In this document: positions 307 to 63,835 of the stretch, one piece after another
How the letters are laid out: each line of letters opens with the position of its first letter
Numbering within the stretch: position 1 is the stretch's first letter
NCBI RefSeq assembly: GCF_001685415.1
Contig: NZ_CP014989.1
Coordinates: forward strand, 310,001-374,000
Length of the DNA stretch: 64,000 nt
Reading direction: 5' to 3'
Origin: Serinicoccus hydrothermalis
Lineage (GTDB): Bacteria > Actinomycetota > Actinomycetes > Actinomycetales > Dermatophilaceae
Notes under the pieces: model-generated
Seen by the model: only the letters and a program-made list of their open reading frames with translations
Databases searched by the model: none
What the model was told of the DNA's origin: nothing
Translations under genes and position numbers: made by a program

Positions 307-1529
307 TGTCTCTTCTTGTCGACGACAAGACTCATCAGGACCCCCAGGGCCAGATCGGCGGGGACCACCGCATACCGGACCAGTCCCGTGCCGCGCGCAC
401 CCGGTCCTTCGACGTGGACGCCTTCGGCATCCCCACCGGGCGCGAGGAGGAGTGGCGCTTCACCCCGGTCGACCGGCTGGGCGGTGTCTTCAGCGACGCC
501 GCCACCGACGACCGTGACGGCGACCCCGCCGCGGACTTCGCGGTCCGGGCGCCGGAGGGCGTGAGCACCTCCACCCTGGCCCCGGGCCAGGCCCCGCGCG
601 GCACCGTGCTGGTCCCCGAGGACCGCGGCGCGGCCGTGGCCTCCGCCAACACCGCCGAGGCGCTGCACGTCAAGATCGCCGCAGAGGCCGAGCTGAGCGA
701 GCCCGCCCGGGTAGACATCGCCGGGAAGGGCGCCGGGCGCCGCAGCAACGCGCACGTCGTCCTCGAGGCCGGCGCGCACAGCAAGGCGCTGGTCATCCTC
801 GACCACACCGGCGCGGCGGACCACACCGGCAACCTCGAGGTCCTCGTCGGCGACGGCGCGAACCTCACGGTGGTCTCGCTGCAGCGCTGGGACGACGAGG
901 CGCTGCACCTCGCCCAGCACGAGGCGCTCGTGGGCCGCGACGCGACCTACAAGCACATCGCGGTCTCCATCGGCGGCGGCATCGTGCGGATGAACTCCAA
1001 CGTCCGGTATGCCGGGCCCGGCGGCGACGCGACGCTGCTCGGCGTCTACTTCTCCGACGCCGGCCAGCACCTCGAGCACCGCTCCTTCGTCGACCACAAC
1101 GCGCCCCGGTGCACCTCGCAGGTGACCTACAAGGGCGCGCTGCAGGGCGAGACGGCGCGGACCGTCTGGGTGGGCGACGTGCTCATCCGGGCCGAGGCCG
1201 AGGGCATCGACACCTACGAGCTCAACCGCAACCTCGTGCTCACCGACGGTGCGCGCGCGGACTCGGTCCCCAACCTGGAGATCGAGACCGGCGACATCGA
1301 GGGTGCGGGGCACGCCAGCTCCACCGGCCGGTTCGACGACGAGCAGCTGTTCTACCTCATGTCCCGCGGCATCACCGAGGACCAGGCCCGTCGTCTCGTC
1401 GTGCGTGGCTTCTTCGCGGACATCATCGCCAAGATCGGTGTCCCGGAGGTCGTGGACACCCTCATGGAGGCGATCGAGGAGGAGCTCTCCCTGACCATGG
1501 GCGCCCAGCCCGCGCGGGACGACGCATGA
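306..1529 (+). CDS. sufD: Fe-S cluster assembly protein SufD
   Basis: SufD (407 aa) is the structural partner of SufB in the SufBC2D cluster-assembly complex. A long variable N-terminal segment includes GREEEWRFTPVDRL, followed by the beta-helix core (LILDHTG-like LVILDHTGAADH, SIGGGIVRMNSNVRYAG). The C-terminal helix contains GRFDDEQLFYLMSRGITEDQARRL, paralogous to the SufB end just upstream. ATG overlaps the sufB stop by one base, and the stop overlaps the ATG of the next gene (ATGA), so this is one operon. No truncation is seen. Confidence 0.95.
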   Translation: MSLLVDDKTHQDPQGQIGGDHRIPDQSRAARTRSFDVDAFGIPTGREEEWRFTPVDRLGGVFSDAATDDRDGDPAADFAVRAPEGVSTSTLAPGQAPRGTVLVPEDRGAAVASANTAEALHVKIAAEAELSEPARVDIAGKGAGRRSNAHVVLEAGAHSKALVILDHTGAADHTGNLEVLVGDGANLTVVSLQRWDDEALHLAQHEALVGRDATYKHIAVSIGGGIVRMNSNVRYAGPGGDATLLGVYFSDAGQHLEHRSFVDHNAPRCTSQVTYKGALQGETARTVWVGDVLIRAEAEGIDTYELNRNLVLTDGARADSVPNLEIETGDIEGAGHASSTGRFDDEQLFYLMSRGITEDQARRLVVRGFFADIIAKIGVPEVVDTLMEAIEEELSLTMGAQPARDDA

Positions 1530-1852
1530 TGACCACCGTCCGCGTGTGCTCCGTCGACCAGCTGCCGGCCTCGGCCGGTGCGGTCGTCGCGGACATCGAG
1601 GGCCGTCGGGTCGCCATAGCGCGCGACAGCGAGGGAGCCCTCCATGCTTTCGACGACACCTGCAGCCACGCCAACGTCAGCCTCGCCGAGGGCGAGGTCG
1701 AGGGCCGCCTCATCGAGTGCTGGCTGCACGGCTCGCAGTTCGACATGACCACGGGCGAGCCGGTCCAGCTGCCGGCGACCGTCCCGATCGCCGTGCACCA
1801 GCTCGAGGTCGACGACGAGGGCGGCGTCCACGTCACCCTCGCCGGCAGCTGA
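1526..1852 (+). CDS. Rieske-type non-heme ferredoxin of the SUF operon
   Basis: A 108-aa Rieske [2Fe-2S] protein. The ligands are C-x-H in DTCSHANVSL and C-x2-H in ECWLHGSQF, about 18 residues apart. Its place between sufD and sufC is common in actinobacterial SUF operons, where such ferredoxins probably act as electron donor or cluster carrier; the exact role is inferred. ATG at 1526 overlaps the sufD stop; a second ATG directly follows and could also be used. Confidence 0.9.
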   Translation: MMTTVRVCSVDQLPASAGAVVADIEGRRVAIARDSEGALHAFDDTCSHANVSLAEGEVEGRLIECWLHGSQFDMTTGEPVQLPATVPIAVHQLEVDDEGGVHVTLAGS

Positions 1853-1893
1853 CCGGCACACCCCCTTCCCCCATCCTTTCGACAAGGAGAACG

Positions 1894-2675: not shown

Positions 2676-4010
2676 ATGACGTCAGGACGGCCGACCGCCG
2701 CACCCCCGAGCGAGGTGGAGATCGCCCGCATCAGGGCGGACTTCCCCCTGCTCGGACGCACGGTGCGCGGCGGCCGTCCGCTCGTCTACCTCGACAGCGG
2801 GGCCACCTCTCAGAAGCCGAGCGTGGTGCTGGACGCCGAGCGCGACTTCTACGAGTCGCACAACGCGGCGGTGCACCGGGGCGCCCACCAGCTCGCCGAG
2901 GAGGCGACCGACGCCTTCGAGGCGGCGCGCGAGACCGTGGCGCGGTTCCTCGGCGCGGACCCCGGTGAGGTCGTCTTCACCAAGAACGGCACCGAGGGTC
3001 TCAACCTGCTCGCCTACGCCTTCTCCAACGCCGCCGCCCCCGGCGCGCTGGACGGCGCGGACGCGGAGTGGGCGCAACGGCTGCGCCTGGGTCCCGGCGA
3101 CGAGGTCGTCGTGACCGAGATGGAGCACCACGCCAACCTCGTGCCCTGGCAGGAGGTCTGCCGCCGCACCGGCGCCACGCTGCGCTGGATCGGGGTCACC
3201 GACGACGGCGAGCTCGACGTCGAGGCTCTCGAGGTCATCACCGAGCGGACCAAGGTCGTGGCCCTGACGCACGTCTCGAACGTGCTCGGCACCCTCAACG
3301 ACCTCGGTCCCGACTCGCCGGTCGTCGCCGCGGCCCGGGCCGTGGGTGCCCTCGTCGTCGTCGACGCCTGCCAGTCGGCGCCGCACCTGGACATCACCGA
3401 CCTCACCGCCGAGGGGTCCGGCATCGACGCCCTGGTCTTCACCGGCCACAAGACGCTTGGCCCGAGCGGCGTGGGCGTGCTCTGGGCGCGGCGCGGCCTG
3501 CTCGAGGCCATGCCACCCTTCCTCACCGGCGGCTCGATGATCGAGGTCGTCCGGATGGAGGGCTCCACGTATGCGGCGCCACCGGCGAGGTTCGAGGCCG
3601 GGGTCCCCATGGCCGCCCAGGCGGTCGGTCTCGCCGCCGGCCTGGACTACCTCACCGAGACGGGCCTGGACCGGGTCCACGCCCACGACCAGCAGCTCAT
3701 GGGGCATACCCTCGACGTGCTCGCGGACCGGCCCTGGGTGCGCGTGCTCGGCCCCGAGCGCACCTCCCGCAGGGTCGGCGCGGTCGCCTTCGTCGTCGAC
3801 GGCGTGCACCCGCACGACGTGGGGCAGGTGCTCGACGACTCGGGCGTCGCCGTGCGGACCGGCCACCACTGCGCGTGGCCCCTGCACCGACGCCTGCGGG
3901 TGCCCGCCTCGACCCGCGCGAGCTTCGGCATCTACACCACCCTGGAGGAGGTCGACGCCTTCGCCGAGGCGCTCGACCGGGTGCCGGAGATCTTCGGGAT
4001 GACCGGGTGA
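2676..4010 (+). CDS. sufS: Cysteine desulfurase SufS
   Basis: SufS (444 aa) is a PLP-dependent group II cysteine desulfurase that takes sulfur from cysteine as a persulfide and passes it to SufU. The PLP lysine is about K259 in TGHKTLGPSG; the catalytic cysteine is about C399 in RTGHHCAWPL. EMEHHANLVPWQ and DACQSAPH are also diagnostic. The N-terminus is about 20 residues longer than the fold needs, so a later start cannot be excluded. It lies 20 nt after sufC and 16 nt before sufU. Confidence 0.95.
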   Translation: MTSGRPTAAPPSEVEIARIRADFPLLGRTVRGGRPLVYLDSGATSQKPSVVLDAERDFYESHNAAVHRGAHQLAEEATDAFEAARETVARFLGADPGEVVFTKNGTEGLNLLAYAFSNAAAPGALDGADAEWAQRLRLGPGDEVVVTEMEHHANLVPWQEVCRRTGATLRWIGVTDDGELDVEALEVITERTKVVALTHVSNVLGTLNDLGPDSPVVAAARAVGALVVVDACQSAPHLDITDLTAEGSGIDALVFTGHKTLGPSGVGVLWARRGLLEAMPPFLTGGSMIEVVRMEGSTYAAPPARFEAGVPMAAQAVGLAAGLDYLTETGLDRVHAHDQQLMGHTLDVLADRPWVRVLGPERTSRRVGAVAFVVDGVHPHDVGQVLDDSGVAVRTGHHCAWPLHRRLRVPASTRASFGIYTTLEEVDAFAEALDRVPEIFGMTG

Positions 4011-4883: not shown

Positions 4884-5642
4884 ATGAGCCCGGCCCACCT
4901 GGTCGAGGTCGCCCCCGAGCGCCTCGACGGGTGGGTCGCGCGGTTCACCGCCTCGCACGGGGAGGTCACCACGTCGGTCGCACGCAGCGACCGAGCGGGT
5001 GCCTCCCCGTCGTCGTCCCTCCACCTGTCCGCCGCTGACGGTTCCTGGGCGCACCTCACCGGCTGGCGCGAGGCCGACCTAGGGGTGGGGCTTTCGGCCC
5101 TCACCGCCCCGCCGCCGCTGCTCGTGATGCTCGTGCGTCGAGGTGGGTATGCCGTCGCCCTGGTCTCCGCGGACGGCGACCTCGTCGCGCACAAGGTCGG
5201 GACACGGCACGTGCAGTCGCGCACCGCGGCCGGCGGCTGGAGCCAGCAGCGCTACGCCCGTCGCCGTGGTCACCAGGCCGACGCCCTCGTCGAGGCCGTC
5301 GTCGGCCACGCCGCCCGCCTACTCGCCCCGCCCGCCCCGTCTCCCCCCGATTCCTCCGACCGGCCGCACGGTTTGCGTCGACCGGCCGCACGGTTCGCGT
5401 CGACCGACCGCACGGTCTGCGCCGCCGATCTCGGAGGTGTGGTGCTGGGTGGCGACCGGTCGCTCGCGGCCGAGGTGATGTCCGGCCTGCTCGACGGCCC
5501 GGCCCTCCCGGGGGACGTCCGGTCCGCCCTGTCCGGGTTGCCGCGCCGCGAGCTCTGGGACCTGCCCGACCCGCGCCGCGCAGTGCTCGACGACGCCGTC
5601 CGGCGGGGCCGTGCGGTGCAGGTCGAGGTCCACAACGCCTGA
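4884..5642 (+). CDS. acVLRF1-family peptidyl-tRNA hydrolase-like protein with repeat insertion
   Basis: A 252-aa protein with the VLRF1 fold (Vms1/eRF1-like release domain). The motif GGWSQQRYARRR at residues ~117-128 carries the Gln pair known from Vms1-type enzymes, which cleave peptidyl-tRNA on stalled ribosomes. In actinobacteria the role is inferred. The C-terminal half resumes with LGGVVLGGDRSLAAEV. Between the two halves, residues 159-180 are encoded by three 22-bp tandem repeats (5358-5423) that start on a codon boundary and keep the frame. ATG at 4884 lies 13 nt after the SufT-like stop. Confidence 0.85.
   Translation: MSPAHLVEVAPERLDGWVARFTASHGEVTTSVARSDRAGASPSSSLHLSAADGSWAHLTGWREADLGVGLSALTAPPPLLVMLVRRGGYAVALVSADGDLVAHKVGTRHVQSRTAAGGWSQQRYARRRGHQADALVEAVVGHAARLLAPPAPSPPDSSDRPHGLRRPAARFASTDRTVCAADLGGVVLGGDRSLAAEVMSGLLDGPALPGDVRSALSGLPRRELWDLPDPRRAVLDDAVRRGRAVQVEVHNA
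5358..5423. repeat. Three 22-bp tandem repeats inside the VLRF1 gene
   Basis: Units start at 5358, 5380 and 5402 and read GACCGGCCGCACGGTTYG plus four more bases, with 2-5 differences between them. They are the reverse complement of the repeats at 47602-47705. Three units of 22 bp make 66 bp, so the reading frame is kept and 22 residues (DRPHGLRRPAARFASTDRTV plus CA) are added to the protein. Confidence 0.9.
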
Positions 5643-5717: not shown

Positions 5718-7061
5718 TCAGGCGGGGGAGGGGGCCGCCTCGCGCTCGTCCTCGCGCTCCTCCTGCGACCAGGGCAGGCCACGACGGTCGCCGTTGTAGG
5801 CCTCCTCGTCGAGGATGCCCTCACGCTTGGCCACGATCGTCGTCACGAGCGCCTGGCCGGTGACGTTGGTGGCGGTGCGGCCCATGTCGAGGATCGGGTC
5901 GACGGCCAGCAGCAGACCCACGCCCTCCAGCGGCAGCCCGAGGGTGGACAGGGTCAGCGTGAGCATGACGGTCGCCCCGGTCACGCCGGCGGTGGCCGCC
6001 GAGCCGAGCACCGACACCATGGCGATGAGCAGGTAGTCGGTGACCCCCAGCTGCATACCGAAGAACTCGGCGACGAAGATCGCGGCGATCGCGGGGTAGA
6101 CCGCGGCGCAGCCGTCCATCTTCGTCGTGGCGCCCAGCGGCACCGCGAAGGAGGAGTATGCCCGGGGCACGCCGAGGTTGCGCTCGGTCACCGCCTGGGT
6201 GACGGGCAGCGTGCCGATCGAGGAGCGGGACACGAAGCCGAGCTGCATGGCCGGCCACGCGCCGGTGAAGAACTGCTTGACCGACAGCCCGTGCAGGCGC
6301 AGCAGGACCGGGTAGAGCACGCCCACGACGAGCAGCAGACCCAGGTAGATCGCGACGGTGAACCGGCCCAGGGACCCGATGGTCTCCCAGCCGTAGGACA
6401 CGATCGCGTTGCCCAGCAGCCCGACGGTGGCGACCGGCGCAAGCAGGATGACCCACCACAGCACCTTCTGGACCACGGCCAGAGCCGAGCGGGTGAAAGA
6501 GAGGAACGGGTCCGCGTCCTTGCCCACCTTGACCACGGCGATGCCGACGGCGATCGCGAGGACGAGGATCTGCAGGACGTTGAAGTTGAGGCTCACGCCG
6601 TCGTCCCCCTCACGGGCGTAGATGCCGAGGGAGTTGGCGGGGATGAGGCCGGTGAGGAAGTCCAGCCAGCCACCGGTGCTGGAGGGCGCCGCGGCATCGG
6701 CCTGGGTGACCCCGGCACCGCGGGCCGGGTCGACCAGCCAGCCGACGACCATACCGATCGAGACCGAGACGAGCGCGGTGATGGCGAACCACAGCAGCGT
6801 CTGCCAGGCCAGGCGCGCGGCGTTGGTGACCTCGCGCAGGTTGGCGATCGAGGAGACGATCGCGAGGAAGACCAGCGGCGGCACGATGGTCCGCAGCAGG
6901 GTGACGAAGGAGGAGCCGACGATCGACAGCGTCTCGGACAGCCAGGTGGGGTTGTCGGCGCTGGCGCCGGTCGAGCGGGCGACGAGGCCGAGGACGACTC
7001 CGAGCACCAGGCCGATGATGACCTGGGTGCCGAAGGAGACCCGGCGAAGTCTGGACAGCAC
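5718..7061 (-). CDS. Dicarboxylate/amino acid:cation symporter (DAACS family)
   Basis: A 447-aa integral membrane carrier of the glutamate/C4-dicarboxylate symporter family. Hydrophobic segments run throughout; the re-entrant loop motif SRSSIGTLPVTQ (~280-290) and the substrate/cation site VPLGATTKMDGCA are typical. Substrate could be glutamate, aspartate or C4-dicarboxylates. GTG 7061 (VLSRLRRVSFG) is chosen because GGAAGG lies 8 nt before it and the first transmembrane helix begins soon after; an upstream ATG at 7163 would add about 34 charged residues. It ends at a shared hairpin with the VLRF1 gene. Confidence 0.9.
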   Translation of the reverse strand: MLSRLRRVSFGTQVIIGLVLGVVLGLVARSTGASADNPTWLSETLSIVGSSFVTLLRTIVPPLVFLAIVSSIANLREVTNAARLAWQTLLWFAITALVSVSIGMVVGWLVDPARGAGVTQADAAAPSSTGGWLDFLTGLIPANSLGIYAREGDDGVSLNFNVLQILVLAIAVGIAVVKVGKDADPFLSFTRSALAVVQKVLWWVILLAPVATVGLLGNAIVSYGWETIGSLGRFTVAIYLGLLLVVGVLYPVLLRLHGLSVKQFFTGAWPAMQLGFVSRSSIGTLPVTQAVTERNLGVPRAYSSFAVPLGATTKMDGCAAVYPAIAAIFVAEFFGMQLGVTDYLLIAMVSVLGSAATAGVTGATVMLTLTLSTLGLPLEGVGLLLAVDPILDMGRTATNVTGQALVTTIVAKREGILDEEAYNGDRRGLPWSQEEREDEREAAPSPA

Positions 7062-8263: not shown

Positions 8264-9862
<1,599 letters not shown>

Positions 9863-9883: not shown

Positions 9884-11743
9884 ATGACCGTCGGTCTGCG
9901 CGGAGGCACCTTCCGGAGCTTCGCCAAGGACCAGTCCGTCAAGAACCACAAGATCGGCCGGGAGACGGCACACCGGGTCGCGGGCTACGGCCGCCCCTTC
10001 CTGGGACGGATCGTGGTCTACCTGCTGCTCACGGTCCTCGCCGGTGGCCTGGTCACCGCTGTCCCCCTGCTCCTGGGACGCATCATCGACCAGGGCGTCG
10101 ACGTGGGGGACCGCGGCGTCGTCGTCCGGCTGTCGCTGCTGGTCGCCGGGCTGGCGGTGCTCGAGGCGGTCGTCACGGTCGTCATCCGCTGGTTCGGCTC
10201 CCGCATCGGCGAGGGGCTCATCTACAACCTGCGCCGCGAGGTCTTCAGCCACGTGCTCCGGCAGCCGATCGCCTTTTTCACCCGAGCCCAGACCGGCGCG
10301 CTGGTCTCCCGGCTCAACAACGACGTCATCGGGGCGCAGACGGCCTTCACCTCGATCCTGTCCGGCTTCGTCTCCAGCCTGGTCCAGCTCGTGCTCATCC
10401 TCGTGGCGCTCTTCTCCATGAGCTGGCAGATCACCCTGCTCGCGCTGCTGCTGGTCCCCATCTTCATCCTCCCGGCGCGCTTCATGGGTGCCCGCCTGTC
10501 CGCGCTCACCCGGCAGCAGATGACGCTCAACGCCGACATGCAGGCGCGGATGACCGAGCGCTTCAACGTCGGTGGCGCGCTGCTGGTGCGCCTCTTCGGG
10601 CGCCCCCGGACCGAGGACGAGGAGTATGCCGAGCGCGCCGCCGGGGTCCGCGACGCCGGGGTCTCGATCTCGGTCAACCGGGTCTTCTTCACCGCCGCCC
10701 TTGGGCTCGTCGCCGCGCTGGCGACGGCCCTCGTCTACGGTCTCGGCGGCCTCATGGTCATCGGGGGCACGCTGACGACCGGCACGCTCGTCGCCATGTC
10801 CACGCTGCTCACCCGGATGTATGCCCCACTCACCTCGCTCTCGAACGTGCGGGTGGACATCATGACCGCCCTGGTGAGCTTCGAGCGGATCTTCGAGGTG
10901 CTGGACCTGCGTCCCCTGGTCCGCGAGGCCGACGACCCCGACCGGATCCCCGCCGGCCCGGTGGGCCTCGAGCTGTCCGGTGTCGCCTTCTCCTACCCGG
11001 AGGCGGACGAGGTCTCGATCGCCTCGCTGGAGCAGCGGCCCGAGGCCGAGCGGACCGACGGCCACTCCGTGCTGCGCGGGGTCGACGTCGACATCCCACC
11101 GGGGTCCATGGTGGCGCTCGTCGGTCCCTCCGGCGCCGGCAAGACGACCCTCACCACCCTGGTGACCCGTCTCTACGACCCCAGCGCGGGCACGGTGCGC
11201 ATCGGCGGCAAGGACCTGCGCGACGTCTCCTTCGACTCGCTGCGCGACACCGTCGGCGTGGTCACGCAGGAGGCGCACATGTTCAACGACACGGTGCGCG
11301 CCAACCTGCTCTACGCCCGCCCGGAGGCCACCGAGACCCAGATCTGGCACGCCCTGGAGGGCGCCCGCATCGCCGAGCTCGTGCGCCGGCTGCCGGACGG
11401 CCTGGGCACCGTGGTGGGCGACCGCGGGCACCGGCTCTCCGGCGGGGAGAAGCAGCGCCTGGCCATCGCCCGGCTGCTGCTGAAGTCCCCCTCCGTCGTC
11501 GTCCTCGACGAGGCCACCGCCCACCTCGACAGCGAGTCCGAGGCGGCCGTCCAGCGGGCGCTGGACGAGGCGCTGCAGGGCCGGACCTCGGTCGTCGTGG
11601 CGCACCGACTCTCCACGGTCCGCGACGCCGACCTCATCCTCGTGCTGGAGGAGGGCCGGGTGGTCCAGCGCGGCACGCACGAGCAGCTGCTCGCCGACGG
11701 CGGTCTGTATGCCGCCCTCCACCGCACGCAGTTCCGCCGCTGA
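9884..11743 (+). CDS. ABC exporter, fused permease and ATPase
   Basis: A 619-aa type IV ABC half-transporter. An N-terminal six-helix domain (~35-330) includes the coupling region EGLIYNLRREVFSHVLRQPI and FFTRAQTGALVSRLNND. The ATPase domain (~360-619) has GPSGAGKTT, LSGGEKQRLAIA and VVLDEATAHLD, followed by VVAHRLSTVRDADLI. It probably works as a homodimer because no partner is adjacent. Substrate is unknown (lipid or drug in relatives). It lies 21 nt after the ABC-F gene with AGGAGA before ATG 9884, so it is likely co-transcribed. Confidence 0.9.
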   Translation: MTVGLRGGTFRSFAKDQSVKNHKIGRETAHRVAGYGRPFLGRIVVYLLLTVLAGGLVTAVPLLLGRIIDQGVDVGDRGVVVRLSLLVAGLAVLEAVVTVVIRWFGSRIGEGLIYNLRREVFSHVLRQPIAFFTRAQTGALVSRLNNDVIGAQTAFTSILSGFVSSLVQLVLILVALFSMSWQITLLALLLVPIFILPARFMGARLSALTRQQMTLNADMQARMTERFNVGGALLVRLFGRPRTEDEEYAERAAGVRDAGVSISVNRVFFTAALGLVAALATALVYGLGGLMVIGGTLTTGTLVAMSTLLTRMYAPLTSLSNVRVDIMTALVSFERIFEVLDLRPLVREADDPDRIPAGPVGLELSGVAFSYPEADEVSIASLEQRPEAERTDGHSVLRGVDVDIPPGSMVALVGPSGAGKTTLTTLVTRLYDPSAGTVRIGGKDLRDVSFDSLRDTVGVVTQEAHMFNDTVRANLLYARPEATETQIWHALEGARIAELVRRLPDGLGTVVGDRGHRLSGGEKQRLAIARLLLKSPSVVVLDEATAHLDSESEAAVQRALDEALQGRTSVVVAHRLSTVRDADLILVLEEGRVVQRGTHEQLLADGGLYAALHRTQFRR

Positions 11744-11750: not shown

Positions 11751-13950
<2,200 letters not shown>

Positions 13951-14760: not shown

Positions 14761-14774
14761 GCGCATACCCCGAA

Positions 14775-14820: not shown

Positions 14821-14871
14821 CTCGAGGCTGAGGGCGCCGGCGGGGTTCGAAGGGCGGTATGCCCCGAGCCG

Positions 14872-17440: not shown

Positions 17441-17479
17441 GCCTCCCGCTTCAGCGCGCGGGCGGTGTGGCACCGGGCA

Positions 17480-25066: not shown

Positions 25067-25073
25067 GGACGGT

Positions 25074-46206: not shown

Positions 46207-46226
46207 TATGCCTGGCCGTGGCTGGC

Positions 46227-47592: not shown

Positions 47593-47601
47593 AGGTATGC
47601 C

Positions 47602-50732: not shown

Positions 50733-51551
50733 GTGCAGGAGGACGCGGCCCTGGAGCTGCTGCAGGCCTGCACCCTCGAGCCGCTCGGGGTCCTGACCCA
50801 GGCCTCCAACCTCACCCTCCTCGTCGACCTCACGCGCGACGGGGAACCCACCGGGCACCGCGGCGTCTACAAGCCGGCCCGCGGCGAGCGTCCGCTGCAC
50901 GACTTCCCGCCGGGCTCGCTGGCGGCGCGGGAGGTCGCGGCGTATGCCGTCTCCCGGGCCGGCGGCTTCGACCTCGTGCCGCCGACCGTACTGCGCGACG
51001 GCCCGCTCGGCCCGGGGTCGGTGCAGTGGTGGGTCGAGCAGGAGCCGGAGCGGCTCGCCGACCCCTCGGCCGGGCTGGTGGACGTGGTAACCCCGGAGGA
51101 TCTGGAGCCCGGCTGGCGGGCGGTCGTCCAGGCCGAGGACGAGCACGGGGCGCCCGTCGTCGTGGCGCACGCCGACGACCCCGCCCTGCGCACGATGGCC
51201 ACCCTCGACGTCCTGCTCAACAACGCCGACCGCAAGGCCGCCCACCTGACCCTCGACACGCAGGGCCGGCTGCGCGGCTTCGACCACGGTGTCTCGCTGC
51301 ACGAGGAGGACAAGCTGCGCACCGTGCTCTGGGGCTTCGCCGGCGAGGGGATGAGCGAGCAGGACGCGGGCCGGGTGGCCGCCCTCGCCGAGCTGCTGGG
51401 CGGGGACGGCGGGACCGTGGAGCAGCTCGGCACCCTGCTGTCGGCCGAGGAGATCTCCGCCCTCCGGGCCCGCACCGAGAAGCTCCTGGCCGCGGGCATA
51501 CTCCCGATGCCGCCGGCGGGGCGCTACCCGCTGCCGTGGCCGCTATGGTGA
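50733..51551 (+). CDS. SCO1664 family (PI3/4-kinase-like fold) protein
   Basis: A 272-aa protein distantly related to phosphatidylinositol kinases. GVYKPARGERPLHDFPPGSLAAREVAAY is the ATP lysine region, and DVLLNNADRKAAHLTL with GFDHGVSLHEEDKL holds the catalytic N and D residues. The substrate is unknown. GTG 50733 lies 1 nt after the DUF3090 stop. Confidence 0.86.
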   Translation: MQEDAALELLQACTLEPLGVLTQASNLTLLVDLTRDGEPTGHRGVYKPARGERPLHDFPPGSLAAREVAAYAVSRAGGFDLVPPTVLRDGPLGPGSVQWWVEQEPERLADPSAGLVDVVTPEDLEPGWRAVVQAEDEHGAPVVVAHADDPALRTMATLDVLLNNADRKAAHLTLDTQGRLRGFDHGVSLHEEDKLRTVLWGFAGEGMSEQDAGRVAALAELLGGDGGTVEQLGTLLSAEEISALRARTEKLLAAGILPMPPAGRYPLPWPLW

Positions 51552-51599: not shown

Positions 51600-52877
51600 G
51601 TGATGACCTGGTCGACCACCGACATCCCGCGTCTCCCGATCGACCACGACGGTACGCCGGTCCGCGTGCACGACACCGCCAGCGGCGACCTGGTGCCCGT
51701 GGGGGGCCAGGACGGCACCGCCCGGCTCTACGTCTGCGGGATCACGCCCTACGACGCCACCCACCTCGGTCACGCCGCCACCTACGTCACCTTCGACGTG
51801 CTGCAGCGCGCGTGGCGGGACGCCGGCCTCGCCGTCACCTACGTCCAGAACGTCACCGACGTCGACGAGCCGCTGCTGGAGCGCGCCGAGCGCGACGGCC
51901 TGGACTGGCGCGAGCTGGCCTCCCGCGAGATCTCGCTCTTCTTCGAGGACATGGAGGCGCTGCGCGTCCTGCCGCCGGACCACTACATCGGCGCCGTCGA
52001 GGGCATCCCCGACGACGTCAGCGCGGTGGAGCGCCTGCTGGAGGACGGCACGGCATACCTCCTGCCGGTGCCCGAGGGCGAGCAGGTCGCCGAAGGCGCC
52101 AGCGGGCAGGACGTCTACCTCGACCTGTCCACCCAGCCCAGCTTCGGTGCGGTCTCGGGATGGACCCGGGAGCAGATGATGGAGGTCTTCGCCGACCGTG
52201 GCGGCGACCCCGGCCGCGCCGGCAAGCGGGACCCGCTGGACCCGCTGCTCTGGCGCTCCGGCCGCGAGGGCGAGCCGCACTGGGACGGTGGCTCGCTGGG
52301 GCAGGGGCGCCCGGGCTGGCACATCGAGTGCTCCACCATCGCCCAGCGCTACCTCGGCCCGGGCTTCGACGTGCAGGGCGGCGGGACCGACCTGGTCTTC
52401 CCGCACCACGAGATGAGCGCGGTCCAGGCGGCCGCCCTGTGCGGCGACGACTGCTTCGCCCGTGCCTACGTGCACCAGGCCATGGTCGGGCTCGACGGCG
52501 AGAAGATGAGCAAGAGCAAGGGCAACCTCGTGCTCGTGTCCAAGCTCCGGGCCGCCGGGGTGGACCCCATGGTCATCCGGCTGGCCCTGCTGTCCCAGCA
52601 CTACCGCTCCGAGTGGCAGTGGACCGACCAGATCCTGCGCGAGGCGGACGACCGGCTGGAGCTGTGGCGCCGCGCGAGCGACATGGCGGCCAACGAGAGC
52701 GTCACCGACCTCGGTCGCGACACCGTCCGCCGCCTGCGCGAGCGGCTGGCCGACGACCTGGACACCCCTGGTGCGCTGGACGCCGTCGACGACTGGGCGA
52801 CCACGGTCGCGGCGGGGGAGCCGGCCTCAGGCCTGGTGCCCCAGGCGGTCGACGCTCTCCTCGGGGTGCAGCTCTGA
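51600..52877 (+). CDS. mshC: Cysteine:GlcN-Ins ligase MshC
   Basis: A 425-aa class I synthetase-like enzyme that joins cysteine to glucosaminyl-inositol in mycothiol synthesis. [18 protein letters not shown] holds a zinc Cys and the HIGH-type motif, [14 protein letters not shown] the second zinc region, and [12 protein letters not shown] the KMSKS loop. It differs from CysRS by the shorter C-terminus. Its 3' end overlaps the convergent HAD gene by 51 bp. Its presence shows the host makes mycothiol. Confidence 0.95.
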
Positions 52878-53558
52878 GCCCAGCCGCGGGATGACCCGCG
52901 CCAGGTCGGCCGGGGACAGACCCTCGAGCGTCGGGACCTGCATCGCGCCGGGCAGGGCGGGCACGGCGACGGTGTGCGGCACGACGAGGGTCGGCACCCC
53001 CGCAGCCGTCGACGCGGCGGCCCCGGTGGGGGAGTCCTCGACGGCGACCGCTGCGCGCGGCTCCACGCCCAGCCGCCGCGCCGCCTCGAGGTATGCCTCG
53101 GGGTGCGGCTTGCCGCGGCTCACCTGGTCACCGGTGACGACGGCGTCGAAGGTCCCGGCCGGCAGGCTCGCCACGAGCACGTCCGCGAGCTCGGTCCACG
53201 ACATCGTGACCAGCGCGCACGGTATGCCAGCCTCGCGGACCGCGCGGAGGAGCTCGACCGCCCCGGGACGCCAGGGGACGTGCGCCCGGGTGCGCGCCAC
53301 GACACCGGTGAGCAGGCGGCGCACCACCTGCTCCGGCTCGCCCCGGACCGGCGTGCGGTCGAGGATCATCCGGGCCGAGGTGAGCAGGTCCTGACCGACC
53401 AGGTCGTGCGCGTCCGCGTCCGTCCAGGTGCCGCCGGCCTCCTCCACGAGGAGGTACTCCTCGGCGATCCAGGAGGGCTCGGTGTCCACGATCGTGCCGT
53501 CCATGTCCCACAGGACGGCGGCGGGCAGGAGGGGTGGCTCGGGGTGCTGGCGCGTCAC
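52827..53558 (-). CDS. HAD family hydrolase
   Basis: A 243-aa HAD phosphatase. Motif I is [17 protein letters not shown], motif II is [12 protein letters not shown], motif III is GKPHPEAYL and motif IV is [12 protein letters not shown]. It resembles beta-phosphoglucomutase-like enzymes; the substrate is unknown. GTG 53558 has TAGCGT 6 nt upstream on the minus strand. Its C-terminal 17 codons lie opposite the end of mshC. Confidence 0.88.
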
Positions 53559-55338: not shown

Positions 55339-56436
55339 ATGGAGCGACAGCCCGGGTGGCGCATCGGCACCCTGTCCGGAATCCCCATCTACCTCGGGGG
55401 CAGCTGGGTCCTGGTCGCGGTCGTCCTGGTCGCCCTCTTCGGCCCCACCGTGCAGCAGGTGCTGCCCGGGCTGGGCGGGTGGAGCTATGCCGTCGCCTTC
55501 CTCTTCGTACTCCTGCTGCTGGTCTCGGTGCTCGTGCACGAGGCGGCGCACGCGCTGGTGGCGCAGCGGGTCGGCTTCGGGGTCTCCCGGATCGTGGCGG
55601 ACTTCTGGGGCGGGCACACCGCGCACGACGGCGCCGGCGGCACCCCGGGCCGCAGCGCGGCGGTGGCGGTCGTCGGGCCGCTCGCCAACGGGGCGCTGGC
55701 CCTGCTCGGCTGGTGGTCGTGGACGCTCGTGGACGGGACCGGGGTGCCGCTGCTGCTCGCGTATGCCTTCACCTGGGCCAACTCCTTCGTGGCCGTCTTC
55801 AACCTCATCCCGGGCCTCCCGCTGGACGGTGGCTTCCTGCTCGAGGCGCTGGTCTGGAAGGTCTCGGGCAACCGCCACGTCGGCACGACGGTGGCGGGCT
55901 GGGCCGGGCGGGTGGTGGTGGTCGTCGTCGCCGTCGCCCTGCTCCTCCCGCCGCTGCTGTCGGGCGAGCGCGTGCCGCTGACGCGGTTCTTCTGGGTCGC
56001 CCTCGTCGGGCTCTTCCTCTGGCAGGGGGCCACCCAAGCGATCCGGACGGGCCGTCAGGGGCTGGCGACCTCCCGCCGCCGGCTCGGCGACGCGGCGCTG
56101 CCGGCGGGGGTCGTGCAGGCGGGTGCCCCGCTGCACACCGTCCCCTGGTCCGAGCACCCGGTATGGGTGGTGCTCGACCCGGACGGGAGCCCGGACGGCC
56201 TCGTCGACCCCCCGGCCCTCCAGCGCGTGCCGCGCGCGCATTGGCCGGGCACGCCGGCCTCGGCGGTGGCGGTGCGGCTGCCGCAGGGATGGGCGGTGCG
56301 GATGGATCCGTCGGCCGGCCTCGACGGGGTCATCGAGGTCATGCGCCGCTCCGGCTCGGGGGTGGTCGCGCTGCTGGACGAGGACGGCCGGCCCTGGGGC
56401 GTGGTGAGCACCCACGAGCTCAGCGAGAGCCGCTCG

Positions 56437-56439: not shown

Positions 56440-59105
<2,666 letters not shown>

Positions 59106-59168: not shown

Positions 59169-61190
59169 ATGGTGGTGGCTGCGGAGACGAAGACCCCCTC
59201 CGACGCCGCCCCCGCCACCCCCACGACGGCGATCATCGCCGTGCTCGCGCTGTGCGGCACCCTCGTCTCGCTGCAGCAGACGCTGGTGCTGCCGCTGCTC
59301 CCGGACTTCCCCGAGATCCTGGGCACGACCAGCGACAACGCGTCCTGGCTGGTCACCGTCACCCTGCTCACGGCGGCCGTCGGGACCCCCATCGTGTCCC
59401 GCCTCGCCGACATGTTCGGCAAGCGGCTCATGCTCATCGTGTGCATGTGGGCGGTCATCGCCGGCTCGGTCGTCTCGGCGCTGAGCGCCGAGCTGTGGCT
59501 CGTCGTCCTCGGGCGCGGGCTGAGCGGCCTCGGCGCCTGCCTCGTGCCGGTCGGCATCAGCATCATGCGCGACCACCTGCCCTCGGACCGGGTCGGCTCC
59601 GGCGTGGCGCTGATGTCGGCGACCCTCGGCATCGGCGGCGCGATCGGTATGCCGCTGGCCGGCGTGATCTACGAGAACCTCGACTGGCACGCGCTCTTCT
59701 ACGTCTCCGGCGGCTTCGCGGTGATCATGCTCGTCGCGGTCCACCTCGTCGTGCCGGAGTCGACGGTGAAGACCCGCGGCCGGTTCGACTTCGCCGGGGC
59801 GCTCATGCTGTCGGTGGCGCTGACCTGCTTCCTGCTGGCGGTGAGCAAGGCCGGCACCTGGGGCTGGGGCTCGCCGATCACGCTCAGCCTGCTCGCCGGT
59901 GCCGGGCTCGTGCTGGCCGCGTGGGTGCCGTGGGAGCTGCGCACCGGGCAGCCGCTGGTCGACATCCGCACGTCGACCCGGCGCACGGTGCTGCTCACCA
60001 ACGCCGCGTCGGTGCTCATCGGCTTCGCGATGTTCGCCAACTTCCTCACCTCCGCGCAGCAGGTGCAGATGCCGCCCGACACCGGCTACGGCTTCGGGCT
60101 GTCGGTGGTCTCGACCGGCCTGGTCATGCTGCCCTCCGGGCTGCTCATGGTGGCGATGTCGCCGGTCTCGGCGAGCCTCATCACCCGGTTCGGGCCGCGG
60201 GCGGTGCTCATCGCCGGCGCGGTGACTATCGCCCTGGGCTTCATCGGCCGGTCGCTGCTGCACGGCAGCGTGCTCGAGGTGGTCATCACCTCCAGCGTGG
60301 CCTCGCTCGGCACGGCCCTGGCCTTCGCGGCGATGCCCACGCTCATCATGCGGGCGGTGCCCATCACCGAGACCGCCTCGGCCAACGGGCTCAACACGCT
60401 GCTGCGCTCGCTCGGCACCTCCTCGGCCTCGGCGCTCGTCGCGGCGGTCTTCGCGGCCTCGATGGTCACGACCGCCAGCGGTGAGCTGGCGCCGCGCTTC
60501 GAGGCATACCAGCTGGTCTTCTGGGCGGGTGCCGCGGCCGCGCTCGGGGGTGCGCTCATCGCGACCTTCATCCGCCGGCCGCAGCGCGCCCACGCCGGCG
60601 TCGAGGGCGACCCGCAGGAGCCGGTGGGGGAGCGCACCGAGGTCAAGCTGGGCGGTGAGCTGCCCGAGCTGCTCGTCCGCGGGCGCGTCGTCGGCCCGCA
60701 GGGACGCCCGCTGCGCCAGGCGGTCACCACCGTGCTGCGCCCCGACGGGCGGCACATCGACTGGGGCCGCACCGACAACGAGGGCCGCTACACCCTGGCG
60801 CTGCCCGAGCCGGGTCCCTACCTGCTCGTCGTCTCCGCCGACGGCTGGGCGCCGCAGTCCGCGCTGGTCGAGCTGTCCGTCGGCCACGAGGAGAACGTCA
60901 CGATGGCCAAGCGGCTGCTGCTCTCCGGCCTCGTGACCGACGAGGGCCGGCCGATGCCCGGGGTGCTCATCTCGCTCATCAAGCACTCCGGCGAGTTCGT
61001 GGGCACGGCCCACAGCGACGAGGACGGGCACTACGAGATCGGCCTGCCCCCGCCGGGTCGCTACGTCCTCACCGCGGTCGACCACGAGGGCGGCCGGACC
61101 CGGTCGCGCGCGCTCACCGTGCTCGCCACCTCCACGACGCTCGACCTCGACATCGTCACCGGGGTGCCGCGCCCGCGCGTGGACGCCTGA
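59169..61190 (+). CDS. MFS transporter fused to carboxypeptidase-regulatory-like domains
   Basis: A 673-aa protein. Residues ~20-475 are a DHA2-like drug transporter (SRLADMFGKRLMLIVCMWA between helices 2 and 3, GRGLSGLGACLVPVGISI, RFDFAGALMLSVALTCFLLA). Residues ~500-670 hold two CarboxypepD_reg beta-sandwich repeats: RGRVVGPQGRPLRQAVTTVL ... TDNEGRYTLALPEPGPYLL and SGLVTDEGRPMPGVLISLI ... SDEDGHYEIGLPPPGRYVL. These repeats lie on the cytoplasmic side if the topology is standard. The substrate is unknown. Confidence 0.88.
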   Translation: MVVAAETKTPSDAAPATPTTAIIAVLALCGTLVSLQQTLVLPLLPDFPEILGTTSDNASWLVTVTLLTAAVGTPIVSRLADMFGKRLMLIVCMWAVIAGSVVSALSAELWLVVLGRGLSGLGACLVPVGISIMRDHLPSDRVGSGVALMSATLGIGGAIGMPLAGVIYENLDWHALFYVSGGFAVIMLVAVHLVVPESTVKTRGRFDFAGALMLSVALTCFLLAVSKAGTWGWGSPITLSLLAGAGLVLAAWVPWELRTGQPLVDIRTSTRRTVLLTNAASVLIGFAMFANFLTSAQQVQMPPDTGYGFGLSVVSTGLVMLPSGLLMVAMSPVSASLITRFGPRAVLIAGAVTIALGFIGRSLLHGSVLEVVITSSVASLGTALAFAAMPTLIMRAVPITETASANGLNTLLRSLGTSSASALVAAVFAASMVTTASGELAPRFEAYQLVFWAGAAAALGGALIATFIRRPQRAHAGVEGDPQEPVGERTEVKLGGELPELLVRGRVVGPQGRPLRQAVTTVLRPDGRHIDWGRTDNEGRYTLALPEPGPYLLVVSADGWAPQSALVELSVGHEENVTMAKRLLLSGLVTDEGRPMPGVLISLIKHSGEFVGTAHSDEDGHYEIGLPPPGRYVLTAVDHEGGRTRSRALTVLATSTTLDLDIVTGVPRPRVDA

Positions 61191-61191
61191 G

Positions 61192-62232
61192 TCAGCCCGG
61201 CGCCAGGAGGTCGGCGCCCGGCAGGTCCGCGACCGCCGCAACGCCGGCCAGCCGCATCGCCTCGACGAGCTCGGCGGTCCAGGTCTGCTGCCAGCTGCGC
61301 ACCCCGTCCTCGCCGTCGACGAGGCCGAGCACCGGCGCACGTCCGGCGAGCACGAGGTCGGCACCGCAGGCGAGCGCCACGAGCACGTCCAGGCCGGTGC
61401 GGACGCCGCCGTCGACGTAGACCTCGGTCCCCGGTCCCACCGCGGCCCGGACCTCCGGAAGGGCGGTCGCCGTGGGGACCACGCGGTCCAGCTGGCGACC
61501 GCCGTGGTTGGAGACCCACACGGCGTCGGCGCCCGCGTCCCGGGAGCGCACGGCCTCGTCACCGCGCAGGACACCCTTGACGACGACCGGCAGACCGGTG
61601 GCCTCACGCAGCCATCCGAGATCCTCGGGTGAGAGGTCGGTGGCCTTCTCCGCACCGGGGGTCCGCTGCCCGTCGGGCGGGAAGTTCACCCGCAGCAGGG
61701 CCGGGTCCGTGGCCTCCCAGACGCTGGCACCGGCATACCTCTTGGTGCTGACGACCGGGGTGTCCACCGTGAGGACCACCGCGCCGGCCCCCGCCTCGAC
61801 CGCGCGCTCGAGCAACGGCAGCGAGAGGTCGCGGTCCTGGGTGAGGTAGGCCTGGACCCACCAGCGGACCCCGGTGGCGCCGATGTCGGCTAAGGTGGAG
61901 CCGGCGTTGCTGGACACCACGAGCAGCTGGCCGGCGGCCGCGCAGGCCCGCGCCATCGCGACCTCGCCCTCGGGGTGGACGGCACGCTGCAGGGTCGTGG
62001 GGGCCACGGCGAAGGGCAGGGCCAGCTCCTCGCCCAGCGCTCGGGTGCGCAGGTCGACGGTGGTCACGTCGTGCAGCACCCGGGGCCGCAGCCGCACCCC
62101 GGCCCAGGCCTCCGCCGCCTCGGCGGCGGCCCGGCCGTCCCCGGCACCGGTGAGGAGGTACTCCAGCACCGGCGCGGGAAGCACCTCCCGGGCGCGGGCC
62201 AGGGCCTCGTCGTAGCGGTAGGTCGCGCTCAC
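61192..62232 (-). CDS. FMN-dependent alpha-hydroxy-acid oxidising protein
   Basis: A 346-aa TIM-barrel flavoprotein of the lactate/glycolate oxidase family. LPFAVAPTTLQRAVHPEGEVAMARA, WWVQAYLTQDR and LPVVVKGVLRGDEAVR (FMN lysine) are present, and the catalytic His and Arg lie in AVWVSNHGGRQLD. DGGVRTGLDVLVALACGADLVLAGR binds the phosphate. The substrate is not determinable. GTG 62232 has TAGCGT 7 nt upstream. Confidence 0.88.
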   Translation of the reverse strand: MSATYRYDEALARAREVLPAPVLEYLLTGAGDGRAAAEAAEAWAGVRLRPRVLHDVTTVDLRTRALGEELALPFAVAPTTLQRAVHPEGEVAMARACAAAGQLLVVSSNAGSTLADIGATGVRWWVQAYLTQDRDLSLPLLERAVEAGAGAVVLTVDTPVVSTKRYAGASVWEATDPALLRVNFPPDGQRTPGAEKATDLSPEDLGWLREATGLPVVVKGVLRGDEAVRSRDAGADAVWVSNHGGRQLDRVVPTATALPEVRAAVGPGTEVYVDGGVRTGLDVLVALACGADLVLAGRAPVLGLVDGEDGVRSWQQTWTAELVEAMRLAGVAAVADLPGADLLAPG

Positions 62233-62239: not shown

Positions 62240-62274
62240 ACGCTACCGGGGGCGGGGCGGGCTCGTGACAGGAT
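62240..62274. promoter_or_regulatory. Divergent promoters of the hydroxyacid oxidase and dop
   Basis: TAGCGT (minus, 62240-62245) is 7 nt from GTG 62232. CAGGAT (plus, 62269-62274) is 7 nt from ATG 62282. Confidence 0.5.
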
Positions 62275-62281
62275 CGGCGCC

Positions 62282-63835
62282 ATGGGAGTGCGCCGGGTCA
62301 TGGGCATCGAGACCGAGCTGGGGATCACCAGCACCCAGCTGGACCCGGCCGGGCGCCCGGTGACCCCGATGGTGCTCTCCGGCCAGGTGGTCCGGGCGTA
62401 TGCCGCGGGCGCGGCCCCGGGAGCGGCGCTCCCCTCCGGCGCGGGGTGGGACTACGCCGACGAGACGCCGCTGCGGGACGCCCGCGGCTTCGAGATGGCG
62501 CGGGCGCTGGCCGACCGCTCCCAGCTCACCGATGTCGAGGACCCGACGATCGCGACCTCGGTGCTGTCCAACGGCGCCCGCTTCTACGTCGACCACGCGC
62601 ACCCGGAGTACTCCTCGCCCGAGGTCACCGGGCCGCTCGCGGCCGTGCGCTACGACCGTGCGGGGGAGGAGGTCGCCTGGGGCGCGGTGCGGACCCTGGC
62701 CGAGGAGGAACTGGAGGTGCGGCTCTACAAGAACAACGTCGACGGTAAAGGCGCGTCCTACGGCACCCACGAGAACTACCTGGTGCCCCGCGCGGTGCCC
62801 TTCGACCGGCTGGCCCGGCTGCTCATCCCCTTCCTCGTCGCCCGGCCGGTCATCGCCGGTGCCGGGCGGGTGGGGATCGGTCAGGCGAGCGAACGCCCGG
62901 GCTTCCAGCTCTCGCAGCGCGCGGACTACCTGGAGGCCGAGGTCGGGCTGGAGACGACGCTGCGCCGCCCCATCGTCAACACCCGGGACGAGCCGCACGC
63001 GACCCCGCACCTGCACCGTCGGCTGCACGTCATCGTCGGCGACGCCACGATGGCCGACGTCACCACCTACCTCGCGCTGGGGTCCCTGTCGGCCGTGCTG
63101 CGGGTCGTCGAGACGCACCCCGAGCTGCTGGAAGGTATGCCGCTCGCCCACCCGGTCGCCGCCGCGCAGGCGATCAGCCACGACCCGTCGCTGCAGGTCA
63201 CGGTGCCGCTGGCGGACGGCCGCGAGATGACCGGCCTGGACCTGGTCGAAGCGCACCTGGAGGCCGCCGAGCGGGCCGCGGCCTCGGGCCACGAGCCCTG
63301 GACCGGCCCGGAGGACTCCGAGACCGAGGGGGTGCTGCGGCGCTGGCGAGACGTCCTCGACACGCTGCGCCGCGACCCCTCGCAGGCCGCCGGGCAGGTC
63401 GAGTGGGTGGCCAAGCACCAGCTGCTGGAGCGCTTCCGCGACCGCGCCGGCGCGGGCTGGGACGACCCGCGGATCGCGGCCATGGACATCCAGTGGCACG
63501 ACCTCGACCCCGGGCGGGGCCTGGCCCGCAAGCTGCGCGCCGCCGGCCAGCTGGAGCGGCTGGTCACACCGGAGGAGGTCGCCGCCGCCGTCACGGAGCC
63601 CCCACCGGACACACGGGCGTGGTTCCGCGGCGAGGCGGTGCGGCGCTACGGCGCGGCCGGGGGAGTCCGTGCCGCGTCGTGGGACTCGGTGGTGCTCGTC
63701 GACGACCGGGGCGGCCTGCGCCGGGTGCGCATGGACGAGCCGACCAGCGGCAGCCGGGCGGCGGTCGCGGGGCTGCTGGACCGGCATACCTCCGCGGCGA
63801 GCCTGCTCTCCGAGCTCGCCAGCGAAGACGTCTGA
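62282..63835 (+). CDS. dop: Deamidase/depupylase Dop
   Basis: A 517-aa glutamine-synthetase-like enzyme that deamidates Pup and removes it from proteins. VMGIETELGIT holds the nucleotide/metal Glu. FYVDHAHPEYSSPEV carries the Asp and His-Glu of the active site, and LYKNNVDGKGASYGTHENYLV is the other conserved block. The ~40-residue Dop loop near residues 40-80 (AAGAAPGAALPSGAGWDYADE) separates it from the ligase PafA. It precedes pup in the usual actinobacterial order. Confidence 0.94.
   Translation: MGVRRVMGIETELGITSTQLDPAGRPVTPMVLSGQVVRAYAAGAAPGAALPSGAGWDYADETPLRDARGFEMARALADRSQLTDVEDPTIATSVLSNGARFYVDHAHPEYSSPEVTGPLAAVRYDRAGEEVAWGAVRTLAEEELEVRLYKNNVDGKGASYGTHENYLVPRAVPFDRLARLLIPFLVARPVIAGAGRVGIGQASERPGFQLSQRADYLEAEVGLETTLRRPIVNTRDEPHATPHLHRRLHVIVGDATMADVTTYLALGSLSAVLRVVETHPELLEGMPLAHPVAAAQAISHDPSLQVTVPLADGREMTGLDLVEAHLEAAERAAASGHEPWTGPEDSETEGVLRRWRDVLDTLRRDPSQAAGQVEWVAKHQLLERFRDRAGAGWDDPRIAAMDIQWHDLDPGRGLARKLRAAGQLERLVTPEEVAAAVTEPPPDTRAWFRGEAVRRYGAAGGVRAASWDSVVLVDDRGGLRRVRMDEPTSGSRAAVAGLLDRHTSAASLLSELASEDV

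Follow-up and report, generated by a model that had tools for sequence, protein, structure and literature searches.

A short over-represented DNA word in Serinicoccus hydrothermalis and its family, arranged strand by strand and putatively of the uptake-sequence kind

To our knowledge, self-DNA words that are spread over whole genomes and have a demonstrated role in uptake have been described from two Gram-negative families. The 12-letter DNA uptake sequence (DUS) of Neisseria begins with ATGCCG. According to PMC3630211, Neisseria carries about 1,900 DUS per 2.2- to 2.3-Mb genome. Other scattered words include Chi, described in PMC8022716 as polarized along the leading strand and present at about 1 per 5 kb in Escherichia coli, and HIP1 of cyanobacteria (GCGATCGC), a palindrome linked to orphan methylases in PMC4390886. 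Here we describe the word GGTATGCC, with the core GTATGC, which an earlier note made from the letters alone had picked out in a 64-kb stretch of Serinicoccus hydrothermalis (the window, positions 310001 to 374000 of a single-contig genome of 3,597,394 bases). The word is strongly enriched, its neighboring copies avoid the same strand, and we tentatively read it as a self-DNA word.

Enrichment of the word in the window and the genome

The GTATGC core occurs 75 times in the window (36 on the plus and 39 on the minus strand), which agrees exactly with the count made by eye in the earlier note. Dinucleotide shuffles place the expectation at 7.3 rather than the roughly 15 predicted there from independent bases, and the over-representation is stronger than had been claimed. 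The core was also said to be mostly extended; 49 of the 75 copies are the full GGTATGCC (0.82 expected from dinucleotide shuffles), and GGTATGCC/GGCATACC is the top-ranked 8-mer of the window against an order-2 Markov expectation. GGCATACC is the other strand of GGTATGCC, and the word is therefore not palindromic. Genome-wide there are 2,180 copies (1,065 plus and 1,115 minus; about 0.6 per kb), compared with 11 copies (4 plus and 7 minus) of the reversed word used as control.

Further counts come from a 464-kb sample of the same genome, composed of the window and 20 other stretches, with 431 genes called by a codon model rather than taken from a published annotation. The sample holds 280 copies of GGTATGCC, with 226 inside called genes, 46 between genes (length predicts 34), and 8 that lie partly in each. 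Shuffling synonymous codons within each gene yields 18.2 ± 4.0 copies for the genic set (z = 51). Five of the six reading frames are common among the genic copies and one is rare, in line with the several frames noticed earlier, and two of the three rare codons thought to be forced by the word are indeed concentrated in it: 41 of 60 ATA codons (68%) and 169 of 282 TAT codons (60%) lie within GTATGCC. Most ATA and TAT codon use is accounted for by the word and not by the protein. From the lowest to the highest quintile of GC content at third codon positions, coding words occur at 0.66, 0.88, 1.11, 0.88, and 0.74 per kb, a modest dip. Maintenance of the word at the DNA level is strongly supported, because the enrichment survives the codon control (a synonymous, not a codon-pair, shuffle), the rare codons are dominated by the word, and the word is present genome-wide and in relatives. 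The DNA-level selection or process postulated in the earlier note is upheld to this extent.

Positions 2 to 7 of the motif, whose core is GTATGCC, are strict in the sample and position 1 is mostly G, with 29, 58, and 51 copies carrying A, C, or T compared with 280 carrying G; all of these exceed expectation. The base directly 3′ of GGTATGCC is G in 62% and C in 27% of the copies, the remaining flank preferences are weak, and A+T tracts beside the word are absent. Two near-words, GGTATGTC and GGTATACC, are enriched (22 and 12 copies, with 4.6 and 2.6 expected) and are plausible C-to-T decay products of the word, a resemblance that speaks for mutation bias or codon bias. However, most core mismatches show no enrichment, the reversed word stays at background, and the rare codons are dominated by one word, and the codon-controlled count together with the strand-wise exclusion described below refutes such a bias in practice. 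In its plain form, the mutational process offered in the earlier note leaves both the one-base variants and the strand-specific exclusion unexplained.

The even spacing reported earlier holds within the window, where the largest gap between GTATGC copies is 2,622 bp and copies are spaced more evenly than a uniform distribution predicts (P about 0.005). It does not extend to the 464-kb sample, where the largest gap is 8.8 kb and the spacing is near random overall. The reported placement between genes and in 52-bp repeats stands. Three repeat copies at window positions 46055 to 46210, a stretch that is intergenic by the codon-model gene calls, each end in the word, and copy 3 has it inverted. 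At L015:11959-12096 and L022:8416-8481, GTATGC without GTATGCC is carried by tandem arrays spaced at 22 bp and 30 bp.

Same-strand exclusion between neighboring copies

GTATGCC occurs on 110 plus and 114 minus strand sites in the first half of the contig and on 95 and 99 in the second (464-kb sample; origin not located). Single stretches are also near even, and no chromosomal strand bias was seen, which disfavors the segregation signal proposed in the earlier note and likewise a replication signal. Relative to genes, GGTATGCC is balanced (114 sense and 112 antisense), and the variant word of the related genome G178 leans antisense (78 sense and 98 antisense).

Pairs of GTATGCC were counted by strand and distance in 544 kb of the S. 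hydrothermalis genome. Same-strand pairs at 10 to 100, 100 to 200, and 200 to 300 bp number 2, 7, and 9 (19, 21, and 21 expected), and those at 300 to 400, 400 to 600, and 600 to 800 bp number 11, 27, and 36 (21, 42, and 42 expected). Opposite-strand pairs in the same six bins number 27, 21, 23, 23, 51, and 56 (19, 21, 21, 21, 42, and 42 expected). Same-strand neighbors are thus depleted below about 700 bp, unexpectedly, whereas opposite-strand neighbors are not. Between 10 and 600 bp, the observed and expected same-strand pairs are 56 and 125 in this genome, 13 and 49 in G141, 14 and 31 in G164, 14 and 37 in 17 other genomes, and 42 and 66 for the variant word of G178. The corresponding opposite-strand values are 55 and 49 in G141, 37 and 30 in G164, 56 and 36 in the 17 genomes, and 66 and 66 in G178. 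In a ranking by exclusion against similarly abundant 7-mers, the word is second of 646 in its own genome (the lower one overlaps it), first of 480 in G141, and eighth of 577 in G164; the G178 word is second of 179 8-mers, behind an overlapping word. Pooled over 60 to 600 bp, there are 164 same-strand and 375 opposite-strand pairs (p = 5e-20, a rough value because related genomes share sites).

A gene- or transcript-level cause was rejected because the exclusion is present inside genes as well as between them and goes with the strand of the DNA. An imbalance remains among same-gene, same-strand pairs closer than 600 bp (26 sense and 2 antisense in S. hydrothermalis; 3 and 11 in G178). DUS-like terminators were also considered: of the 15 GTATGCC pairs no more than 60 bp apart, 14 are inverted, yet inverted pairs are near expectation (27 versus 19 at 10 to 100 bp), and the idea was dropped because it is the tandem pairs that are missing (2 versus 19). 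The strand-wise exclusion implies that copies on opposite strands are not interchangeable and that little is gained from repeating the word on one strand within about 700 bases.

A Chi-like signal would produce this arrangement if a putative reader, AdnAB (the helicase-nuclease that resects breaks in actinobacteria), recognized the word on one strand and in one direction and changed its activity at that point. Another copy on that strand would then matter only some distance further on, and copies on the opposite strand would serve the other end of a break. As a one-directional reader predicts, convergent and divergent pairs are alike (200 and 175; p = 0.22). The even strand use and the density of 0.6 per kb speak against it when set beside the polarity and sparseness of known Chi (PMC8022716). 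Neither does Chi itself show clear same-strand exclusion in 650 kb of E. coli K-12, where 142 sites, a sample of low power, give 11 same-strand pairs at 10 to 600 bp (13.3 expected) and 4 opposite-strand pairs (7.3 expected); its same-strand rank, also of low power, is 26 of 95 8-mers. We rank a Chi-like signal, the form in which the repair-system word of the earlier note remains a candidate, second because of its directional logic and regard it as unlikely, though the main rival.

A strand mark is another putative account, in which an enzyme would modify the word on one strand and repair or surveillance would use the nearest mark on each strand. It predicts two independent strand-wise sets of sites with diminishing returns, matching the observation. 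On the other side, the Eco57I-type methylase family PF07669 has no match in the 2,180-copy genome (other methylase families were not searched) and is scattered across the family, in 117 of 186 genomes. This result counts against one class of the methylases that the earlier note had suggested and led us to reject type IIG/BREX-like methylases; we consider a strand mark quite improbable.

Distribution and variants in the family

The genome belongs to what we take to be the family Dermatophilaceae; by its SufD protein, the closest named relatives are Serinicoccus (91%) and Ornithinimicrobium (74 to 76%). Across 31 genomes of genus g1, GGTATGCC occurs 38 to 2,180 times. Genome G009 accounts for the 38 copies, possibly through recent loss or use of another variant, and the other 30 carry 285 to 2,180. 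HK97-type capsid genes (PF05065) were found in only 2 of these 31 genomes, which points to few such prophages, too few for a depletion test. In a family sample of 186 genomes from 53 genera, 104 are word-rich (at least 300 copies), 25 intermediate (60 to 299), and 57 word-poor (fewer than 60). The enrichment extends beyond the window to the whole genome and to relatives. The earlier note would have taken its absence there, or a z-score near zero under codon control, as refuting its claim, and neither was observed. Word-rich and word-poor genomes can share a genus, as in g33 (11, 1,694, and 347 copies). Among 362 genomes from the order's other families (396 drawn, 34 of them from the family), none has more than 136 copies, near to a few-fold of the reversed control, which shows that high counts are confined to one family within the order sampled. 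A literature search, in which subscription papers were mostly not covered, gave no report of this word in actinobacteria among the matches listed.

Aligned word sites in the comEC regions of word-rich genomes are identical in a fraction of 0.48 of pairwise comparisons, compared with 0.23 for 7-mers with three A/T, and in word-poor groups in 0.00 to 0.04, compared with 0.19 to 0.24 for the control; these counts are of genome pairs, which are nonindependent, and one site is counted many times. Relative to S. hydrothermalis, sites are kept at 4 of 7 in Serinicoccus L050, 2 of 7 in L052, and 0 of 5 in L051, near or below control. Among relatives with the same word, 6 of 14 sites are kept between G070 and G172 (81% identical) and 2 of 8 between G070 and G071 (78%). 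Rapid decay of the word once unmaintained is expected because the words sit on disfavored codons. The fast turnover of sites bears on a further reading, that of a putative protein-binding site for nucleoid organization or regulation. The presence of the word genome-wide, within and between genes, would suit such a site, but what the exclusion tracks is the strand of the DNA, not coverage or the sense of genes, and the sites are short-lived, and we judge this reading very unlikely.

Ten word-poor genomes, and then a wider set, were scanned for over-represented words. The clearest variant is GGATGCCG(G), which differs by one base from GTATGCCG. Whole-genome counts of GGATGCCGG are 2,027 in G178, 1,068 and 1,040 in genus g9, and 1,227, 1,003, 705, and 656 in genus g15; other family genomes hold 49 to 351, with reversed controls up to about 125. 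The g15 genomes with 705 and 656 copies also carry GGTATGCC (523 and 508 copies), and GGTATGCC is low in those with 1,227 and 1,003. Genomes with GGATGCCG occupy three places on a quick tree of AdnAB, which implies at least three changes (gains or losses), and G178 is sister to G070, a GTATGCC user. GTATGACG was found beside GTATGCCG in G063 (60 kb) and G167 (20 kb). In G037, GTATGGCG (5 copies in 20 kb) was replaced by GTATGCCG once 60 kb was examined. GTACGCC at aligned sites does not count as a sign of a variant because it is also frequent in a group that has no clear word (51 of 343). The sharing of ATGCCG between the start of the Neisseria DUS and GTATGCCG is most likely coincidence.

Other repeated words were encountered as well. 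CGAAGGGGG, unrelated in sequence to GTATGCC, is over-represented in genera g27 and g36 (L030, L031, L034, L035, L160-L163, L190, L191). Pairs of GAAGGGGG in these genera (90 sites) are 5 opposite and 1 same below 60 bp, and 9 opposite and 2 same at 60 to 600 bp. At L040:18439-19651 (G184), AGTAGGTGC repeats cluster with 24- and 59-bp spacing, a local array and not a genome-wide word.

Table 1. Copies of the word and of its core in the window
Feature	Position	Strand	Remark
GGTATGCC	1006..1013	+	exact match
GGTATGCC	3703..3710	-	exact match
GGTATGCC	5146..5153	+	exact match
GGTATGCC	8655..8662	+	exact match
GGTATGCC	12801..12808	+	exact match
GGTATGCC	13005..13012	-	exact match
GGTATGCC	14856..14863	+	exact match
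GGTATGCC	16350..16357	+	exact match
GGTATGCC	17156..17163	-	exact match
GGTATGCC	17476..17483	-	exact match
GGTATGCC	19429..19436	-	exact match
GGTATGCC	24203..24210	+	exact match
GGTATGCC	25071..25078	+	exact match
GGTATGCC	25319..25326	-	exact match
GGTATGCC	26156..26163	-	exact match
GGTATGCC	27093..27100	-	exact match
GGTATGCC	28091..28098	-	exact match
GGTATGCC	29189..29196	-	exact match
GGTATGCC	29544..29551	+	exact match
GGTATGCC	30217..30224	+	exact match; inverted GTATGCC 14 bp away
GGTATGCC	32078..32085	-	exact match
GGTATGCC	33474..33481	-	exact match
GGTATGCC	33620..33627	+	exact match
GGTATGCC	34030..34037	-	exact match
GGTATGCC	35084..35091	-	exact match
GGTATGCC	35603..35610	-	exact match
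GGTATGCC	36218..36225	-	exact match
GGTATGCC	37061..37068	+	exact match
GGTATGCC	37559..37566	-	exact match
GGTATGCC	38084..38091	+	exact match
GGTATGCC	41259..41266	-	exact match
GGTATGCC	42880..42887	-	exact match
GGTATGCC	43630..43637	-	exact match
GGTATGCC	46100..46107	-	ends 52-bp repeat copy 1
GGTATGCC	46152..46159	-	ends 52-bp repeat copy 2
GGTATGCC	46205..46212	+	ends 52-bp repeat copy 3, inverted
GGTATGCC	46851..46858	-	exact match
GGTATGCC	47594..47601	+	exact match
GGTATGCC	49628..49635	-	exact match
GGTATGCC	52052..52059	-	exact match
GGTATGCC	53090..53097	+	exact match
GGTATGCC	53221..53228	+	exact match
GGTATGCC	57227..57234	-	exact match
GGTATGCC	58934..58941	-	exact match
GGTATGCC	59646..59653	+	exact match
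GGTATGCC	60503..60510	-	exact match
GGTATGCC	61732..61739	-	exact match
GGTATGCC	63134..63141	+	exact match
GGTATGCC	63783..63790	-	exact match
GTATGC outside full GGTATGCC	370..375	-	
GTATGC outside full GGTATGCC	3569..3574	+	
GTATGC outside full GGTATGCC	6053..6058	-	
GTATGC outside full GGTATGCC	6156..6161	+	
GTATGC outside full GGTATGCC	10624..10629	+	
GTATGC outside full GGTATGCC	10819..10824	+	
GTATGC outside full GGTATGCC	11707..11712	+	
GTATGC outside full GGTATGCC	11914..11919	-	
GTATGC outside full GGTATGCC	13894..13899	-	
GTATGC outside full GGTATGCC	14763..14768	-	
GTATGC outside full GGTATGCC	21206..21211	+	
GTATGC outside full GGTATGCC	22429..22434	+	
GTATGC outside full GGTATGCC	23022..23027	-	
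GTATGC outside full GGTATGCC	27597..27602	+	
GTATGC of inverted GTATGCC	30233..30238	-	partner 30217..30224
GTATGC outside full GGTATGCC	30910..30915	-	
GTATGC outside full GGTATGCC	32330..32335	+	
GTATGC outside full GGTATGCC	34873..34878	+	
GTATGC outside full GGTATGCC	40707..40712	+	
GTATGC outside full GGTATGCC	40823..40828	+	
GTATGC outside full GGTATGCC	44737..44742	+	
GTATGC outside full GGTATGCC	50942..50947	+	
GTATGC outside full GGTATGCC	51496..51501	-	
GTATGC outside full GGTATGCC	55761..55766	+	
GTATGC outside full GGTATGCC	58745..58750	+	
GTATGC outside full GGTATGCC	62398..62403	+	

Candidate readers and comparison with known systems

The size of the enrichment, the even strand use, the restriction to one family within the order, and the one-base variants together suggest that GGTATGCC is a putative genome-wide self-DNA word of the uptake-sequence kind that is read strand by strand, a reading we hold with slightly less than even confidence and rank first because of the enrichment size and the even strand use. 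The strand-specific reading probably takes place on single-stranded DNA, in transformation or recombination. DNA uptake was absent from the explanations listed in the earlier note and fits the enrichment size and the variants better than those did. In the mechanism we propose, a Tad/Flp pilus, ComEA, and ComEC would bring DNA into these single-membrane bacteria as one strand, and a factor located at or immediately behind the channel would prefer strands bearing the word. The word would spread because alleles with it would more often be imported and recombined. A second same-strand copy within about 700 bases would add little, and an opposite-strand copy would serve the other strand independently. 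Should the reading factor shift its preference by one base, the genome would drift to a variant such as GGATGCCG.

Candidate genes for such a route are present. In S. hydrothermalis, comEA (HHH_3 and SLBB domains) adjoins comEC, both genes were found by tblastn in 40 of the 40 genomes whose comEC region was fetched, and ComEC is present in 180 of the 186 family genomes. Three T2SSE ATPase loci pass the cutoff in S. hydrothermalis; locus 1 also has T2SSF and DUF4244 genes, locus 3 has TadE, and at locus 2 T2SSE alone was confirmed. Transformation of Micrococcus luteus requires comEC and Flp pili, as stated in PMC4322843.

The recombination genes bear on the Chi-like signal. AdnA and AdnB are adjacent in S. 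hydrothermalis (L448:5735-12219, identified by domains), and tblastn matches occur in 24 of 24 loci fetched, in keeping with such a signal; word-rich and variant genomes are alike in this, so the presence of AdnAB is not discriminating. All 40 genomes searched for PDDEXK_1 have matches. On the quick tree, no AdnA or AdnB column separates GTATGCC genomes from the four GGATGCCG variant genomes. The response of AdnAB to Chi is stated as unknown in PMC4824097. RecC, found in 89 of 186 genomes, is not positively linked to the word (47 of 104 word-rich, 6 of 25 intermediate, and 36 of 57 word-poor genomes), and a RecBCD-Chi system was rejected because RecC has a patchy distribution, with a slight excess among word-poor genomes (p = 0.03).

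Several observations weigh against a self-DNA word read strand by strand. GTATGCC lies in the sense more often than in the antisense orientation in its own genome (251 and 165). The GGATGCCG sites of G064 and G065 (28 kb) show no exclusion (22 same-strand and 23 opposite-strand pairs), nor do the enriched words CGATGCGG of G113, GTACGCCG and GTACGACG of G120, and GTACGGCG and GTACGACG of G114, which for this reason are not claimed as true variants. In several single comparisons, word sites are retained between near relatives to no greater extent than the control; between the sisters G070 and G178 (81% identical), 0 of 11 sites are kept and only 1 of 11 is converted in place. ComEC is equally common in word-poor genomes and hence not discriminating. 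Only 3 of 186 genomes have a match below E 1e-50 to PilT, a protein of type IVa pili, which disfavors type IVa-pilus uptake, and a ComP-like receptor is therefore not expected. The analysis turned up no protein that reads the word, and the literature search gave no report of competence in these genera among the matches listed.

The known uptake sequences weigh in the same direction. From 60 to 600 bp, among the matches listed, DUS of the Neisseria type form 99 same-strand and 121 opposite-strand pairs (at least 656 distinct sites in at least 120 IMG/VR loci), and USS (uptake signal sequences) of the Pasteurellaceae type form 34 and 26 (366 sites in 108 loci), with no exclusion in either; only distances above 60 bp were used because these loci had been found via short-distance inverted pairs. 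An ordinary, orientation-blind uptake sequence of the Neisseria/Haemophilus type would explain the enrichment size, the variants, and the even strand use. The lack of strand-specific exclusion in DUS and USS, and close inverted pairs that are near expectation and not clearly enriched as terminators would be, make it an improbable account of this word. The exclusion sets the word apart among those tested, as no yardstick shows it clearly (the Chi test being weak).

Taken more broadly, we think it somewhat better than an even chance that over a hundred actinobacterial species share, in related spellings, a class of word read on single-stranded DNA and on each strand separately, be it a Gram-positive uptake word or an AdnAB signal of the Chi type. 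If so, an actinobacterial self-DNA word, with its variants and strand arrangement, would offer a handle on how DNA is chosen for uptake or recombination. It would make the question of AdnAB and Chi testable, and, where genetic tools are few, it could help in the design of DNA that transforms the organism.

Compared with the DUS of Neisseriaceae, the word is likewise short and nonpalindromic, with thousands of copies and genus variants sharing a core (PMC3630211), and its enrichment is of DUS size. It shares with DUS and USS an over-representation of one to two orders on both strands, the lack of chromosomal strand polarity, and related variants in related lineages (GGATGCCGG in G178, g9, and g15). 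It differs in its actinobacterial host, in having T2SSE and Tad-type genes instead of a type IV pilus with a minor-pilin receptor, and in an arrangement that is not orientation-blind, with same-strand exclusion and without clear enrichment of inverted pairs. The USS of the Pasteurellaceae is similar in density, enrichment, and family-restricted variants and has flanking A+T tracts; the word described here lacks such tracts and shows the exclusion that USS does not. Like Chi, it is a nonpalindromic, over-represented word of 7 to 8 bp whose directional reading would explain the exclusion, but it lies evenly on both strands, lacks polarity with replication, is denser, and has no positive link to RecC. 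With HIP1, it shares the form of an octamer scattered through genomes with a function that is unsettled; HIP1 is a palindrome, whereas the word of S. hydrothermalis is nonpalindromic and forms two independent strand sets.

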